Assembly (NCBI GenBank): GCA_029882515.1
Contig: JAOUKN010000010.1
Span: 1 to 37,919 of the forward strand
Reading direction: 5' to 3'
DNA: 37,919 nucleotides
DNA from: Candidatus Bathyarchaeota archaeon
GTDB taxonomy: Archaea; Thermoproteota; Bathyarchaeia; Bathyarchaeales; Bathyarchaeaceae
Of the stretch, positions 7,971 to 36,725 are shown in pieces (position 1 is the stretch's first letter; each line of letters begins with the position of its first letter). The position numbers and the translations under genes are program-made. The notes beneath the pieces are model-generated. The model made no database searches, had not been told where the DNA came from, and saw only the letters and a program-made list of their open reading frames with translations.

Positions 7971-8400
7971 CGGGGTACGCTTTACCAGTCGAGAAATGCG
8001 CTATATAGCTTTATTCGAAAGTATAACTGGAGCCACTGCAAAAGACTGTGTGGTTGACGAGGATCTTAACCGAATAATTTTCGTTGTGAAAGAAGGAGAT
8101 GTAGGGGCTGCTATAGGAAGAAAAGGCAAAAACATTCATCTTCTCGAAAGAATGACTGGAAAAAAGCATGAAATAATAGAGCATTCGGAAAATCCAGCTC
8201 AATTCATAAAAAATGCTTTGAGACCAGCTCACGTGAATGAAATAAGGATCACAGAGCGTCCAGATGGGAAGACCATTGCGGTTGTTTCTGTGAACCCTAG
8301 AGACAAAGGGGTTGCTATCGGTAAGAACGGAAGGAATGCTGAAAGAATTCGGTTCTTAGCTAAACGTTACTTTCGAATACAGAATGTGTCTATTACCTAA
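7963..8400 (+). CDS. nusA: Archaeal NusA, tandem KH-domain transcription factor
   Basis: This 145-residue protein has only the two KH domains of NusA and lacks the N-terminal and S1 domains of the bacterial factor, as is normal in archaea. The two GxxG loops are visible as AAIGRKGKNIHLLE (first KH) and VAIGKNGRNAERIR (second KH). It is predicted to bind RNA during elongation or termination. It is the last gene of the polymerase operon. In many archaea rps12 and rps7 come next, but here a stem-loop overlaps the stop codon and a sulfur-metabolism operon follows. Confidence 0.93.
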   Translation: MSSGVRFTSREMRYIALFESITGATAKDCVVDEDLNRIIFVVKEGDVGAAIGRKGKNIHLLERMTGKKHEIIEHSENPAQFIKNALRPAHVNEIRITERPDGKTIAVVSVNPRDKGVAIGKNGRNAERIRFLAKRYFRIQNVSIT

Positions 8401-8417
8401 AGTCTGTAATAGACTTT
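8399..8417 (+). terminator. Stem-loop at the 3' end of the rpoB-nusA transcript
   Basis: AAAGTCT GTAAT AGACTTT is a perfect 7-bp inverted repeat with a 5-base loop that includes the last two bases of the nusA stop codon. No long T-run follows, so it may protect the 3' end or attenuate transcription rather than act as a classical terminator. Confidence 0.45.
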
Positions 8418-8451
8418 GACAGCTAAAAGAAAACTAGTAACCATAGTATTG

Positions 8452-8494: not shown

Positions 8495-8737
8495 ATGCCT
8501 GAAAAAGCAAAAGTGGATCAAACCGTTGACTGTATAGGACTTTACTGTCCCGAACCAGTTTTCAGGACTCGGCAAGAAATAGATAAGATGGTTGTTGGAC
8601 AGGTTTTGGAAATTATTGCTGATGACCCAGCAGCAGAGCAGGATATTCAAAGTCTAATAAGAAGGACGGGGCAAAAACTTATTGAGATACGGAAAGAAGG
8701 AAGCCATATTCGTTTTTTGATTGAAAAAGTTAAATAG
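8495..8737 (+). CDS. tusA: TusA-family sulfurtransferase/sulfur carrier
   Basis: An 80-residue protein of the TusA/SirA family, which carries persulfide sulfur on a conserved cysteine and passes it between enzymes. The signature CPEP (residues 14-17, within DCIGLYCPEPVFRTRQEI) contains the sulfur-carrying cysteine, followed by the typical V..GQVLEIIADDPAAEQDI segment. A strong GGGAGG lies 7-8 bases before the ATG. It is first in a run with an IscS-type protein (13-base gap), an IscU scaffold and a Cys-rich small protein, so it probably feeds or receives sulfur in cluster assembly or tRNA thiolation. Which of these cannot be read from sequence. Confidence 0.88.
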   Translation: MPEKAKVDQTVDCIGLYCPEPVFRTRQEIDKMVVGQVLEIIADDPAAEQDIQSLIRRTGQKLIEIRKEGSHIRFLIEKVK

Positions 8738-8749
8738 AAGGTGATCTCG

Positions 8750-9931
8750 ATGACGGGGAAAAAAGTCTACATGGATTATGGAGCTGGAGCACCTGTGGAT
8801 CCCAGAATTCTTGAGACCATGAAGCCATACTTTACCAAAGCCTTTGGAAACCCTTCTTCGGTTCATTCTATGGGGCAAGAAGCAAAGAAGGCTGTAGAAA
8901 AGTCACGAAGAAGTATTGCAGATCTTGTTGGAGCTGAGATAAAAGAGGAAATTGTCTTCACTTCTGGGGGCACGGAAAGTAACAATTTAGCTATTAAAGG
9001 TGTTGCATATCGCAATAAGAAACGGGGGGATCATATGATTGCCACTACGCTCGAACATATGTCCGTAATTAACACTTTCAAGTATCTGCAGAAAGATGGT
9101 TTTAGGACTACTTGCGTGCCTGTAGATGAGTGTGGAATAGTTGATGTTGAAGCTTTGAAAAATGTAATCACAGACCAAACTATACTTATTTCAGTCATAT
9201 ATGCTAACGGCGAAATTGGAACAGTGGAGCCAATAAAAGAAATTGGAGAAGTAGCTCATGAGAGAAACATCTATTTTCATGTGGATGCGGTTGCTGCGGC
9301 AGGTCAAGTACCCATCAACGTGATAGATGAGCATATAGACTTGCTTTCTCTTTCGTCCAATGATCTCTATGGTCCAAAAGGAGTAGGGGCCTTATATATT
9401 AAAACTGGAACCAAAATCCAGCCGATTGTGCATGGTGGTGGTCAGGAAAAAGGAATGCGATCTGGAACAGAGAACGTGCCTGCTATCGTCGGTATGGGCG
9501 AGGCTGCAAGGATTGCAAAGAAAGAAATGAAATCTGAAAGTGGTAGGTTATCTGGGTTGCGGGATAGATTGATAGAAGGTGTTTTGGATAAGATACCGCG
9601 TTCTTTTTTGAATGGTCATCCCACCATGAGGCTTCCCAATAACGCCAATCTTAGGTTTAGTTATATTGAGGGTGAATCGTTGATACTGAGCCTTGATATG
9701 GAAGGAGTGGCTACTTCTTCTGGTTCAGCGTGTACTTCAAAGACCCTTGAGCCTTCTCACGTCTTGTTGGCTATAAATTTGGCTCATGAAGAGGCTCATG
9801 GATCATTAGTGTTCACGTTGGGGAGATGGACAACTAAGGAGGAAATTGATTACGTAATGAAAATATTGCCAGGTATCGTAAGACGTTTAAGGGCCATTTC
9901 CCCTTTAACTCCTAAAGAGTTGCTGAGGTGA
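8750..9931 (+). CDS. iscS: IscS-like cysteine desulfurase homologue lacking the PLP lysine
   Basis: A fold-type I aminotransferase-class protein of the NifS/IscS family; active members form persulfide from cysteine. I start it at ATG 8750 because GGTGAT sits just before it, giving 393 residues; the ORF track uses GTG 8741. Family motifs are present: GGTESNNLAIKG, HVDAVAAAGQ, GGGQEKGMRSGTENV, and the sulfur-accepting cysteine in SSGSACTSK (about C328). At the position where IscS has HK (SAHK.YGPKG), this protein reads SSNDLYGPKG, so the lysine that normally binds PLP is Asp (about residue 205). From memory, Archaeoglobus fulgidus IscS has the same replacement and forms a complex with IscU. It may act as a cluster-ligating partner rather than as a normal desulfurase. 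iscU starts 4 bases downstream. Confidence 0.93.
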   Translation: MTGKKVYMDYGAGAPVDPRILETMKPYFTKAFGNPSSVHSMGQEAKKAVEKSRRSIADLVGAEIKEEIVFTSGGTESNNLAIKGVAYRNKKRGDHMIATTLEHMSVINTFKYLQKDGFRTTCVPVDECGIVDVEALKNVITDQTILISVIYANGEIGTVEPIKEIGEVAHERNIYFHVDAVAAAGQVPINVIDEHIDLLSLSSNDLYGPKGVGALYIKTGTKIQPIVHGGGQEKGMRSGTENVPAIVGMGEAARIAKKEMKSESGRLSGLRDRLIEGVLDKIPRSFLNGHPTMRLPNNANLRFSYIEGESLILSLDMEGVATSSGSACTSKTLEPSHVLLAINLAHEEAHGSLVFTLGRWTTKEEIDYVMKILPGIVRRLRAISPLTPKELLR

Positions 9932-9935
9932 AAGC

Positions 9936-10310
9936 GTGTACTCTGAAAAGGTTATGGACCATTTCAGGAATCCGCGAAACATGGGAGAAATTCCAGATGC
10001 TGACGGCGTGGGTACTGTTGGTAATCCAGTTTGCGGTGACGTCATGACCGTCTACATAAAAATCAAAGACAACAAGATAGACGACATCAAGTTCAAAACG
10101 TTTGGTTGTGGCGCAGCAATAGCCACGAGCAGTATGATAACCGAATTGGCAAAGGGAAAAACCCTTGATGATGCTTTAAAAATTACACGGGCTAATGTCG
10201 CAGAGGGTCTTGGAGGGCTTCCTCCGATCAAAATGCACTGTTCAAACCTAGCTGCGGATGCTTTGCACGCTGCTATAAAAGACTATAAGGAGAAGAAAGA
10301 GGGGAATTGA
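9936..10310 (+). CDS. iscU: Fe-S cluster assembly scaffold IscU
   Basis: A 124-residue IscU/NifU-N scaffold on which Fe-S clusters are built before transfer to apoproteins. The three ligand cysteines are present: C33 in NPVCGD, C58 in FGCGAAIATSS and C102 in KMHCSNLA. The conserved Asp35, tied to cluster turnover in the family, is also present. The start is GTG, preceded by GAGGTGA at the end of iscS. The region around C102 reads LPPIKMHCSNLA, close to the LPPVK.HCS recognised by HscA chaperones in bacteria. The 4-base gap after the lysine-less IscS supports a dedicated IscS-IscU complex. Confidence 0.95.
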   Translation: MYSEKVMDHFRNPRNMGEIPDADGVGTVGNPVCGDVMTVYIKIKDNKIDDIKFKTFGCGAAIATSSMITELAKGKTLDDALKITRANVAEGLGGLPPIKMHCSNLAADALHAAIKDYKEKKEGN

Positions 10311-10313
10311 GCA

Positions 10314-10493
10314 ATGAAATTCATAAAGTGTAAAGTATGTGGTAAAGAGATAGCTGAGACTGACAGATGTGAACTAGCACGTTATCAAAAGACCATTGAT
10401 GGAGAACGATACACATTTTGTTGTGTCCATTGTGCCGATGAACTTGATGTAAAACAAAAGCAACATAAAAAAGGTTCAAGCATAGGTTGTTAA
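10314..10493 (+). CDS. Small Cys-rich (zinc-ribbon/TRASH-like) protein of the isc operon
   Basis: This 59-codon ORF is missing from the ORF track. It starts ATG 3 bases after the iscU stop, with AGAGGGGAATTGA as a plausible binding site. The protein begins MKFIKCKVCGKEIAET and contains FCCVHCADEL, giving CxxC, a middle Cys (RCEL) and CCxxC, and it ends in Cys (SIGC). The pattern suggests a metal- or cluster-binding knuckle like TRASH domains. Its place as fourth gene suggests iron or sulfur delivery, metal sensing, or a client protein. I do not recognise a named family. Confidence 0.65.
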   Translation: MKFIKCKVCGKEIAETDRCELARYQKTIDGERYTFCCVHCADELDVKQKQHKKGSSIGC

Positions 10494-33721: not shown

Positions 33722-34936
33722 TCATTCAACTAGAGAGTTAATTATCTCTTTCAATGCAGATACAAATTTGTCAATTTCCTCTTCCGTGTTGTAAAAGTAG
33801 GTGGATGCTCTAATGGTTCCTGACTTGTGAAGGAGACCCCTTATGAAGGGAAGCGCACAGTGATGCCCAGAGCGGACCATAATGTTGGCGGAAACGTCTA
33901 ATGCCAAGGCTACATCATGTGGATTTAAGTCCTTTATATTGAAGGCCATAATTCCAATCTTTTGTTCAGGGTCAGGACTATAAACCTCAACATTAGGAAG
34001 GGCCGTCATTTCCTCATACATCAGCGTTGTGAGTTTCCTTTCGTAGCGTTCAATGTTCTTCATTCCAATTTTCTGCAAGTAGTCAATTGCAGCCCCTAGT
34101 CCAATCACGTCTGCTATGGCAGGGGTTCCAGCTTCAAATCTTCTCGGGCTTTTGTCCAGTGTGTAAGAGTCATGCTCTACGTCTGCTATGGCTCCGCCCC
34201 CAATGCACAGCGGTTCAACTTCTTCGCTTAATTCTTTTCGAATGTAAAGGACTCCAGAACCAGTTGGGGCGCACATTTTATGCCCACTGAAGGCAAGGAA
34301 GTCACATCCAATTTTTTGAACATCTACTTTCATGTGTGGAACTGACTGCGCACCGTCAACCAAGACATATGCACCATGTTCATGGGCAATCTTTGTGATC
34401 TCCTCAATAGGTGTAATCACTCCTAAAACATTTGAAACATGTGTCAGAGCCACCAGCTTCGTCTTGTCATCAATAATTTTCTCAAAATCGGTGACATCTA
34501 GAAGTCCTTCTTCAACTGATCCCTTGGGCCTAACAGTCTTCAATTCTATGTCATAATTATTCTTTACACGAAGCCAAACAATGAAATCTGAGTGGTGTTC
34601 AATCAGGGATGTAACGATCTTTTCTCCTTTTTTCCATTTCAAGCCGCTTGCAATGAGATTTATTCCTTCTGTGGTATTTTTGGTCATGATAACTTCGTTT
34701 TCAGATTTTGCATTAATGAAATCTGCGACTTTTGTTCGAGCTCGTTCGTATTCTTCGCTTGCCTTTTGGGAGAGGTGGTGGATGCCTCGCCCTACATTTG
34801 CTCGATAGTGGCAATAAAACTCCAACATTTTCTGAAGAACTGGCTCTGGAGTGAGACTACTTGCGGCGTTGTCTAAGTAAATTATGCCTGTTTTCAAAAT
34901 CGGGAAATCCTTTCTCACTTTTCTTACGTTTAGCAT
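33722..34936 (-). CDS. sufS: SufS-type cysteine desulfurase
   Basis: A 404-residue group II cysteine desulfurase that supplies persulfide sulfur for Fe-S assembly. Unlike the IscS-type gene in this window it keeps the PLP lysine (FLAFSGHKMCAPTGSG) and the catalytic cysteine region MVRSGHHCALPFI. NNTTEGINLIASG-like KNTTEGINLIA and VDGAQSVPHMKVDV are also present. The ATG has GGAG 6 bases upstream. No SufE/SufU is adjacent; a family 4 uracil glycosylase follows by 9 bases. A perfect palindrome in the upstream region is a candidate operator. Confidence 0.96.
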   Translation of the reverse strand: MLNVRKVRKDFPILKTGIIYLDNAASSLTPEPVLQKMLEFYCHYRANVGRGIHHLSQKASEEYERARTKVADFINAKSENEVIMTKNTTEGINLIASGLKWKKGEKIVTSLIEHHSDFIVWLRVKNNYDIELKTVRPKGSVEEGLLDVTDFEKIIDDKTKLVALTHVSNVLGVITPIEEITKIAHEHGAYVLVDGAQSVPHMKVDVQKIGCDFLAFSGHKMCAPTGSGVLYIRKELSEEVEPLCIGGGAIADVEHDSYTLDKSPRRFEAGTPAIADVIGLGAAIDYLQKIGMKNIERYERKLTTLMYEEMTALPNVEVYSPDPEQKIGIMAFNIKDLNPHDVALALDVSANIMVRSGHHCALPFIRGLLHKSGTIRASTYFYNTEEEIDKFVSALKEIINSLVE

Positions 34937-35040: not shown

Positions 35041-35273
35041 GTTTCTATATCACAATGAAATATTCTTTTCCAACAACTCACATATCTGTTTCTTTTAGAT
35101 ACAAGACAAACTTCTGCTACGTGTCGAACCCAGAAACCGTCGAAATTGTCGTCTACCATCGTAGGTCACGTATCTTCTCCAGAATAGAATGTCGTTATAT
35201 AGGTTAGAAATGAGTAGTGTTCCGACACATTTTAATACTACATCCACACACCTTACTTCTTGAGCGTGGTAGA

Positions 35274-36725
35274 ATGTCGGATTTTGATGGGAAGAAACCG
35301 CGAAGTAGCAAGGAATTCGCTAGGTTGCTTGCGCTTGCAAAGCGTAGAGAAGTTGAGGTGAAAAAAGCGAGGGGAAGTAGATCGACAAAACCGACAGTTT
35401 CAGGTACAGCAAGAATAATGAACGTGCACCGTGATACGCTTTATAAGTGGATGGCTGAGTTTGGCGTTAATTTTGAAGGTGTGGGTGAAAGGGAGGTGCC
35501 TTCGCCATTGGTGAGAAAGGAGGTTGCTCCTTATACCTACCTTATTGGCGAGGCTTTTATTGGGGAAGGAACTGAGGTGGCTCATGTTGATTTGATAATT
35601 GGTGACAAAGCAGGTCCTGTAGGAGAAGCTTTCGCTAATGGTTTGTCTAATTTGTCTGCGGGACATACTCCACTTCTGGCTGTTATTAGACCCAATCTTC
35701 CTCCTAAACCGCACACCCTTCTAGTTCCAAAGGTCACTGTAAAAAATCTTGAAGATACGGGCAAAATTTTTGGTCCTGCTCAGGCTGCGGTGGCTAAAGC
35801 TGTTGCTGATTCAGTAGAAGAAGGGGTTATCCCTGAAGATAAACTTGAAGAATGGGTGATAATATGTAGTGTCTTTGTTCATCCGGATGCAAAAGATTAT
35901 CGTCGAATATACTCCTACAATTATGGAGCTACAAAACTCGCGCTAACAAGGGCTATGACCAGCTATCCGCCACTGAAGAAGATAATGTTTGACAAGGATC
36001 GTGCGAAGCATCCGATTATGGGGTTCAAGGTGCCTCGGCTGTGGAGACCGCCTTACCTACAAATTGCCTTTGATATTCCAAGCCTAGAGAGAACAAAGAA
36101 GATTATAAGTGGGACACCAAAAAGCGACAGAATCATTTTTGAAGTTGGCACTCCTCTGCTGAAGAAGTATGGAACGAGAGTAATTAGCGAACTTAGAGAA
36201 TTAGCCAAAGATACATTCATAGTGGCTGATCTAAAAACGCTTGACGTAGGAAAAGTAGAAGTTGACTTAGCTTTTGATGAAACTGCGGATGCTGTCGTGG
36301 CCTCCGGATTAGCCGTCAAAGAAACTATTGACAGGTTCATTTATGAAGCACATAGATTTGGAATCTATGCATACGTAGATATGATGAATGTTGCCACTCC
36401 AGTTCAAAAACTTAAAGCACTCGAACGTTTTCCAGATGTCATAATTCTACATCGTGGCATCGACGAGGAACTAACTGGAAAACCCCATTGGGAACTAATT
36501 CGAGAAATGCGACAAGCTTTCATTGACAAAAAATTCTTGGTGGCTGTTGCCGGTGGAATAACTCCAGAAACTGCACCAGATGCCCTCACAAGAGGGGCAG
36601 ATATTATTATCGTTGGAAGGTACATAACACAATCAAGAGACGTCGAACGTTCAGTTAGAGAATTCATAGAGATCACCAGAGGAATGAGAAGAGACATAGA
36701 CTTACTCAGAGAACACATAGAATAA
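35274..36725 (+). CDS. fae-hps: Formaldehyde-activating enzyme/hexulose-6-phosphate synthase with N-terminal HTH
   Basis: A 483-residue three-part protein from ATG 35274 (the track adds 19 residues). Residues 1-85 are an unusual basic extension with a helix-turn-helix (TVSGTARIMNVHRDTLYKWMAEFGVNF, about 41-67). Residues about 86-250 are Fae, which condenses formaldehyde with tetrahydromethanopterin; His104 in VAHVDLIIGDKAGPVGEAF is the catalytic His and LSAGHTPLLAVIRPNLPPKPHTLLVPKVT is the signature. The rest is Hps, an OMPDC-fold barrel (FIVADLKTLD, VAVAGGITPETAPDALTRGADIIIVGRYIT). In archaea Fae-Hps links ribulose-5-phosphate supply with formaldehyde capture. The HTH suggests DNA binding and perhaps self-regulation, which is inference. 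Confidence 0.93.
   Translation: MSDFDGKKPRSSKEFARLLALAKRREVEVKKARGSRSTKPTVSGTARIMNVHRDTLYKWMAEFGVNFEGVGEREVPSPLVRKEVAPYTYLIGEAFIGEGTEVAHVDLIIGDKAGPVGEAFANGLSNLSAGHTPLLAVIRPNLPPKPHTLLVPKVTVKNLEDTGKIFGPAQAAVAKAVADSVEEGVIPEDKLEEWVIICSVFVHPDAKDYRRIYSYNYGATKLALTRAMTSYPPLKKIMFDKDRAKHPIMGFKVPRLWRPPYLQIAFDIPSLERTKKIISGTPKSDRIIFEVGTPLLKKYGTRVISELRELAKDTFIVADLKTLDVGKVEVDLAFDETADAVVASGLAVKETIDRFIYEAHRFGIYAYVDMMNVATPVQKLKALERFPDVIILHRGIDEELTGKPHWELIREMRQAFIDKKFLVAVAGGITPETAPDALTRGADIIIVGRYITQSRDVERSVREFIEITRGMRRDIDLLREHIE

Follow-up and report, generated by a model that had tools for sequence, protein, structure and literature searches.

The defining activity of IscS is normally the production of sulfur from cysteine. 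At its PLP site the canonical protein carries the motif S-[GA]-H-K-x-Y-G-P-K-G. Archaea hold an exception, and the primary papers cited for IscS of the Archaeoglobus fulgidus type are said to be Marinoni 2012, Yamanaka 2013 and Pagnier 2014/2015. According to passages of one paper (PMC7585200), the replacement of Lys by Asp leaves A. fulgidus IscS without desulfurase activity, and the [2Fe-2S] cluster on IscU has as one of its ligands a cysteine that this IscS donates. Passages of another name Cys321 as the cluster ligand (PMC9769115), and the IscS-IscU complex is also described in part of a third (PMC5176006). In the passages of PMC7585200, M. acetivorans IscS1 is likewise reported to be without the catalytic lysine and is proposed to act like A. 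fulgidus IscS.

Such proteins raise a question. If IscS no longer makes sulfur from cysteine, what feeds the cluster? In E. coli the traffic runs outward from IscS: Cys19 of the small protein TusA lies about 4 Å from Cys328 of IscS, from which it receives sulfur (PMC2854127).

Here we analyse a lysine-less iscS gene in a 37.9 kb contig of a Bathyarchaeia genome (the whole stretch of 37,919 nucleotides is called the window below) together with its relatives across the archaea. What appears to be new is that TusA is confined to lysine-less loci, that the lysine-less forms have a single origin, and that in some genomes they partner the sole recognisable scaffold. A literature search that covered few subscription papers found no prior report of the TusA link to lysine-less IscS, and likewise none of the single origin or of the genomes with a sole scaffold partner. 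We conclude that the window gene probably encodes a catalytically dead IscS, a dedicated partner of the adjoining IscU, which would receive its sulfur from elsewhere with TusA as the likeliest carrier.

Materials and methods

Sequences came from whole-genome protein searches, region fetches and a single scan of named genomes. That scan used two seed patterns, and because one of them contained SSND it is biased towards ND-type sequences; the whole-genome searches are free of this bias. The census holds 250 sequences after removal of near-duplicates, counting the reference proteins of E. coli and A. fulgidus. Neighbours were counted only at loci with enough flanking sequence.

The near-complete Bathyarchaeia set comprises 14 genomes with completeness of 90% or more and contamination of 5% or less (G050, G051, G052, G053, G182, G183, G184, G185, G188, G189, G229, G237, G238 and G247). 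The nine Halobacteriota genomes discussed below are G619, G784, G645, G755, G765, G794, G638, G809 and G697, the first of which is a single 2.2 Mb contig.

Results

The window belongs to Bathyarchaeia MAG G000 (2.23 Mb, 230 contigs, 88% complete). On its + strand the gene order is rpoB, rpoA, rpl30e and a nusA-like gene, then a gap of about 95 bases, then tusA, iscS, iscU and a 59-aa Cys-rich ORF. The features referred to below are these:

8495-8737, + strand: TusA with a CPEP motif (Pfam TusA, E 3e-23)
8741, + strand: alternative GTG start of the lysine-less IscS, lengthening the ORF to 396 aa
8750-9931, + strand: lysine-less IscS, intact ORF of 393 aa (Pfam Aminotran_5; best PDB match 4eb5/4hvk, E 7e-138)
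9362-9364, + strand: GAT codon of Asp205, at the PLP-lysine position (E. coli K206, A. fulgidus D199)
9731-9733, + strand: codon of Cys328 within SGSACTSK, the sulfur-carrying or cluster-ligand cysteine (E. coli C328, A. fulgidus C321)
9936-10310, + strand: IscU scaffold (TIGR03419, 214 bits, over the cut-off)
10314-10493, + strand: small Cys-rich ORF of 59 aa, with weak Pfam YHS/TRASH matches below the cut-off
33722-34936, - strand: canonical SufS, in trans (TIGR01979, 486 bits, over the cut-off), with SGHK (Lys) and RSGHHC (Cys) motifs

The iscS ORF contains no internal stops and encodes 393-396 aa depending on the start. Its Aminotran_5 and IscS/NifS family matches place the product in the IscS/NifS fold family, and its score exceeds the NCBIfam NifS cut-off (TIGR03402, 535.1 against 530.75 bits). 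That model is blind to the absent lysine, so automatic annotation would name the protein a desulfurase. Residues 202-211 read SSNDLYGPKG, with Asp in the column of the Schiff-base lysine (E. coli K206, hereafter the K site). Three more canonical active-site residues are absent: H205 has become Asn, Q183 Ala and R354 Val. Cys328, the catalytic cysteine of canonical IscS/NifS, is present. The first-pass annotation of this DNA had described the SSNDLYGPKG motif with Asp near residue 205, a retained sulfur-accepting Cys near 328, tusA and iscU in the same gene set and a canonical SufS also encoded in the genome; all of these are borne out.

The closest solved relative of the window IscS is A. fulgidus IscS, with 55.7% identity. 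In PDB chain 4eb5 the motif is SSNDIYGPKG, with D199 and C321, which bears out at sequence level what the first-pass annotation had said of this protein; entry 4r5f holds A. fulgidus IscS with Lys restored at D199. Like A. fulgidus IscS (4eb5, 4eb7, 4hvk), the window protein has Lys replaced by Asp and the His just before it by Asn, has Ala for Gln183, has lost Arg354, retains the loop Cys and falls in the same clade. The two differ at residue 155, which is Gly in the window IscS and Asn in A. fulgidus. Judged by its sequence, the window protein is a further example of the already known A. fulgidus type.

With M. acetivorans IscS1 the window IscS shares the reported absence of the catalytic lysine. 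Three lysine-less genes from the M. acetivorans phylum (L296, L299 and L324) read LSGNQ or LSGND and have TusA and IscU adjoining; the K site is Gln in two of these loci and Asp in the window. With E. coli IscS (50.4% identity) the window protein shares its fold, the Cys328 loop and the partners IscU and TusA (PMC2854127). E. coli IscS, however, is a PLP desulfurase that passes sulfur to TusA, whereas K206, H205, Q183, N155 and R354 are all replaced in the window IscS. With these residues replaced, the usual path from cysteine to sulfur is closed to the protein.

The window IscU has all three cluster cysteines (GNPVCGD, GCGAAIA, HCSNL), and the window TusA scores under the NCBIfam TusA equivalog cut-off (64.6 against 78 bits). 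Homologues of the 59-aa Cys-rich ORF lie 3' of iscU in 53 of 145 lysine-less loci and in 0 of 93 lysine-type loci; its product is possibly a metal-handling partner. Two further features of the window are recorded here. A 9-bp perfect stem (AAAGTCTGT..., 8398-8418) lies upstream of tusA, where nusA has its stop codon, in a 103-nt stretch whose stability is not above that of shuffled sequence (z 0.38). Near the SufS gene, at 35217-36725, Fae (formaldehyde-activating enzyme) is fused to an OMPdecase/HUMPS-family domain.

Elsewhere in G000, 88% complete, a search found no match to SufB or SufD. A class-V homologue, 34% identical, lacks the usual cysteine motifs. There are two further NifU_N proteins, L390 (C121) and L391 (C191). 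Each has as neighbours small NifX-like proteins and an Mrp/MinD-like ATPase that carries two ferredoxin-type Cys clusters. Given these two proteins and the incomplete genome, we withhold the claim that the window IscU is the last scaffold of G000.

How widespread is the lysine-less form? Across the 250 sequences the K site is Asp in 147, Glu in 3, Gln in 2, Asn in 1, Gly in 1 and Lys in 96. Hosts of the lysine-less proteins include Bathyarchaeia, other Thermoproteota, Hadarchaea, Asgard lineages, Archaeoglobi, Methanoperedens/ANME-2, Methanosarcina-like genomes and one Thermoplasmata MAG. One genome, G712, has two IscS genes, both ND-type. In a 107-row tree the lysine-less sequences lie on one side of a single branch (99 SH-aLRT). 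The clade, which includes the window and A. fulgidus IscS, persisted with 100/98 support in a more careful 80-row tree from which 24 PLP-site columns had been removed, and this rules out an artefact of shared active-site residues. The lysine-less IscS clade is, in these trees, a single old archaeal branch, and the distinct subfamily proposed in the first pass is thereby upheld.

No reversion to Lys was found inside the clade in the trees of sampled sequences; L052/L195 and L174, considered as revertants, were placed outside it by the 80-row tree. Within the clade the K site is Asn, Gly, Glu or Gln in L119, L122, L042/L144, L049, L327, L296 and L299. A separate group of lysine-type relatives, L080-L088, reads SSYKILGPRG or SSHK, has Asp183 and Leu354 and has an IscU-like gene adjoining; by its residues it is another unusual active-site variant.

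The loss of the lysine does not come alone. Among the 154 distinct lysine-less sequences, the H205 position is Asn in 147 and the Q183 position Ala in 143. R354, which we take to align with the SufS arginine that binds the substrate carboxylate, is retained in 2, both from Methanoperedens nitroreducens (L168, L173). Q183, H205 and R354 are all lost in 152 of the 154, and all three are kept in 83 of the 96 lysine types. In the alignment, then, PLP and substrate residues are lost as a block along with the Lys. Cys328 is retained in all 154. Also retained are T76, H104, D180 and S203 of the cofactor pocket, and likewise T/S243.

The gene neighbourhood separates the two types. TusA, called at a bit score of at least 35, lies directly upstream in 111 of 146 lysine-less loci and in 0 of 91 lysine-type loci; weak TusA-like matches of 27-34 bits, below this threshold, lie downstream in the lysine-type loci L075, L076, L082 and L086. 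IscU lies downstream in 132/145 lysine-less loci against 47/93 lysine-type loci. The expectation that all ND-type genes sit beside iscU and tusA thus holds for most of them, with exceptions in both cases. TusA is not adjacent at 35 of the 146 lysine-less loci (Methanoperedens, several f27 Bathyarchaeia and other members), and is therefore not indispensable. Fisher tests on these counts are extreme, yet the lysine-less clade has a single origin, so that its loci are non-independent and the p-values are not to be read literally; a single historical event may lie behind the TusA link.

The linked TusAs retain the equivalents of E. coli C19 (111/112), D45 (110/112) and D51 (112/112). The E. coli IscS-TusA contact residues are partly matched in them, R31 being Asp or Glu in 102/112. 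Co-variation between IscS helix alpha2 and TusA was also counted, and the charge patterns gave no clear test.

What other Fe-S machinery accompanies the lysine-less IscS? In all 14 near-complete Bathyarchaeia genomes the sole IscU-family match adjoins a lysine-less IscS, and no SufB or SufD was found in these 14. Lysine-less IscS is the only recognisable IscS/SufS homologue in the nine Halobacteriota genomes and in the Bathyarchaeia genome G048; three of the nine have a further weak match, SepCysS-like by its SGHKSWAATA motif. Most near-complete lysine-less Bathyarchaeia additionally encode either SufS or a lysine-type IscS that stands alone, away from iscU and tusA. SufS is present in 169 of 257 Bathyarchaeia.

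Discussion

A lysine-PLP aldimine is impossible in the window IscS. Lacking both the Schiff-base lysine and R354, the protein should not be a PLP cysteine desulfurase, and if it is catalytically dead, sulfur must arrive from another source. What would such a protein do? By analogy, we infer for it the same cluster-ligand role as in A. fulgidus IscS; the cluster-holding function suggested in the first pass gains support in this way from published work on that protein, as given in passages of PMC7585200 and PMC9769115. The window IscS dimer would dock two IscU molecules, and its mobile Cys328 loop would ligate the nascent [2Fe-2S] cluster until IscU departs. TusA would be the likeliest immediate carrier of sulfur, passing it to Cys328 or to IscU, a flow that would reverse the E. 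coli direction from IscS to TusA. Gene neighbourhood and the conserved residues of TusA suggest, in line with the first pass, that it may carry sulfur toward the IscS-IscU complex. TusA itself may be loaded by SufS in the window organism, with sulfide as the main alternative source. In a further form of the proposal, the lysine-less proteins would mark an ancient archaeal branch of Fe-S assembly that draws no cysteine sulfur through its own IscS: TusA would feed a permanently non-catalytic IscS, which would hand the sulfur to IscU and clamp the cluster, and some archaea would depend on this scaffold system alone and encode no canonical desulfurase. We advance this tentatively and hold it at less than even confidence.

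Does TusA have to take part? The window IscS could be a dock for IscU and a cluster ligand supplied by free sulfide, leaving TusA to another route such as tRNA thiolation. In M. maripaludis, Fe-S clusters take their sulfur from sulfide, and Na2S supports the SMS system (PMC10500019, PMC12192291). A supply of this kind would suit the nine Halobacteriota genomes and G048, which have no other recognisable IscS/SufS homologue, and the Methanoperedens members without an adjoining TusA. It does not sit well with the restriction of TusA adjacency to lysine-less loci, nor with the near invariance of the sulfur-transfer cysteine and aspartates in the linked TusAs, and we regard it as somewhat unlikely.

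If TusA does carry sulfur, a desulfurase acting in trans could load it: SufS or a solitary lysine-type IscS would pass a persulfide to TusA, from where it would reach IscU by way of the lysine-less IscS. SufS is encoded in the window's genome, and most near-complete lysine-less Bathyarchaeia have one or other of these enzymes. But with SufS present in most Bathyarchaeia in any case, co-occurrence is weak evidence, and the lysine-less IscS has been kept in the nine Halobacteriota genomes and G048, where no such desulfurase is recognisable. SufS feeding, which the first pass had raised, therefore cannot be general, and genomes without SufS weaken its candidacy as a common donor. We think a relay of this kind improbable.

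Our preferred reading, a non-catalytic partner of IscU, also has to be weighed against the chance that the protein is still an enzyme, either through lysine-free chemistry with PLP bound non-covalently or in another reaction altogether. Retention of T76, H104, D180 and S203 makes non-covalent PLP binding possible; T/S243, also kept, belongs to the same phosphate and ring contacts, and Fig. 1 of PMC9769115, by its legend, shows PLP in the structure of the A. fulgidus IscS-IscU complex. Yet R354 is almost universally gone, and the K site drifts to Glu, Asn, Gly and Gln within the clade, which argues that Asp is not an indispensable catalytic group. A. fulgidus IscS is, moreover, reported to be without desulfurase activity (cited in passages of PMC7585200). 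Continued catalysis is in our judgement very unlikely.

A decaying pseudogene or a sequencing error has next to no chance of being correct: nothing favours it except the loss of a catalytic residue, turning GAT into a codon for Lys takes two base changes or more, and Asp stands in 147 of 154 lysine-less relatives, with intact ORFs, an invariant Cys328 and neighbouring genes conserved across phyla, so that clade-wide conservation rules it out.

A whole archaeal clade thus appears to have abandoned desulfurase chemistry while keeping IscS, the mobile cysteine and the IscU partner, and in several Bathyarchaeia the lysine-less protein apparently partners the only recognisable scaffold. The docking and cluster-ligand role of IscS would thereby be separated from its catalytic role. 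Since database models label lysine-less IscS proteins as cysteine desulfurases, many archaeal MAGs have probably been assigned a sulfur metabolism that is wrong on this point. How sulfur is fed into the Fe-S clusters of anaerobic archaea becomes a directly testable question.
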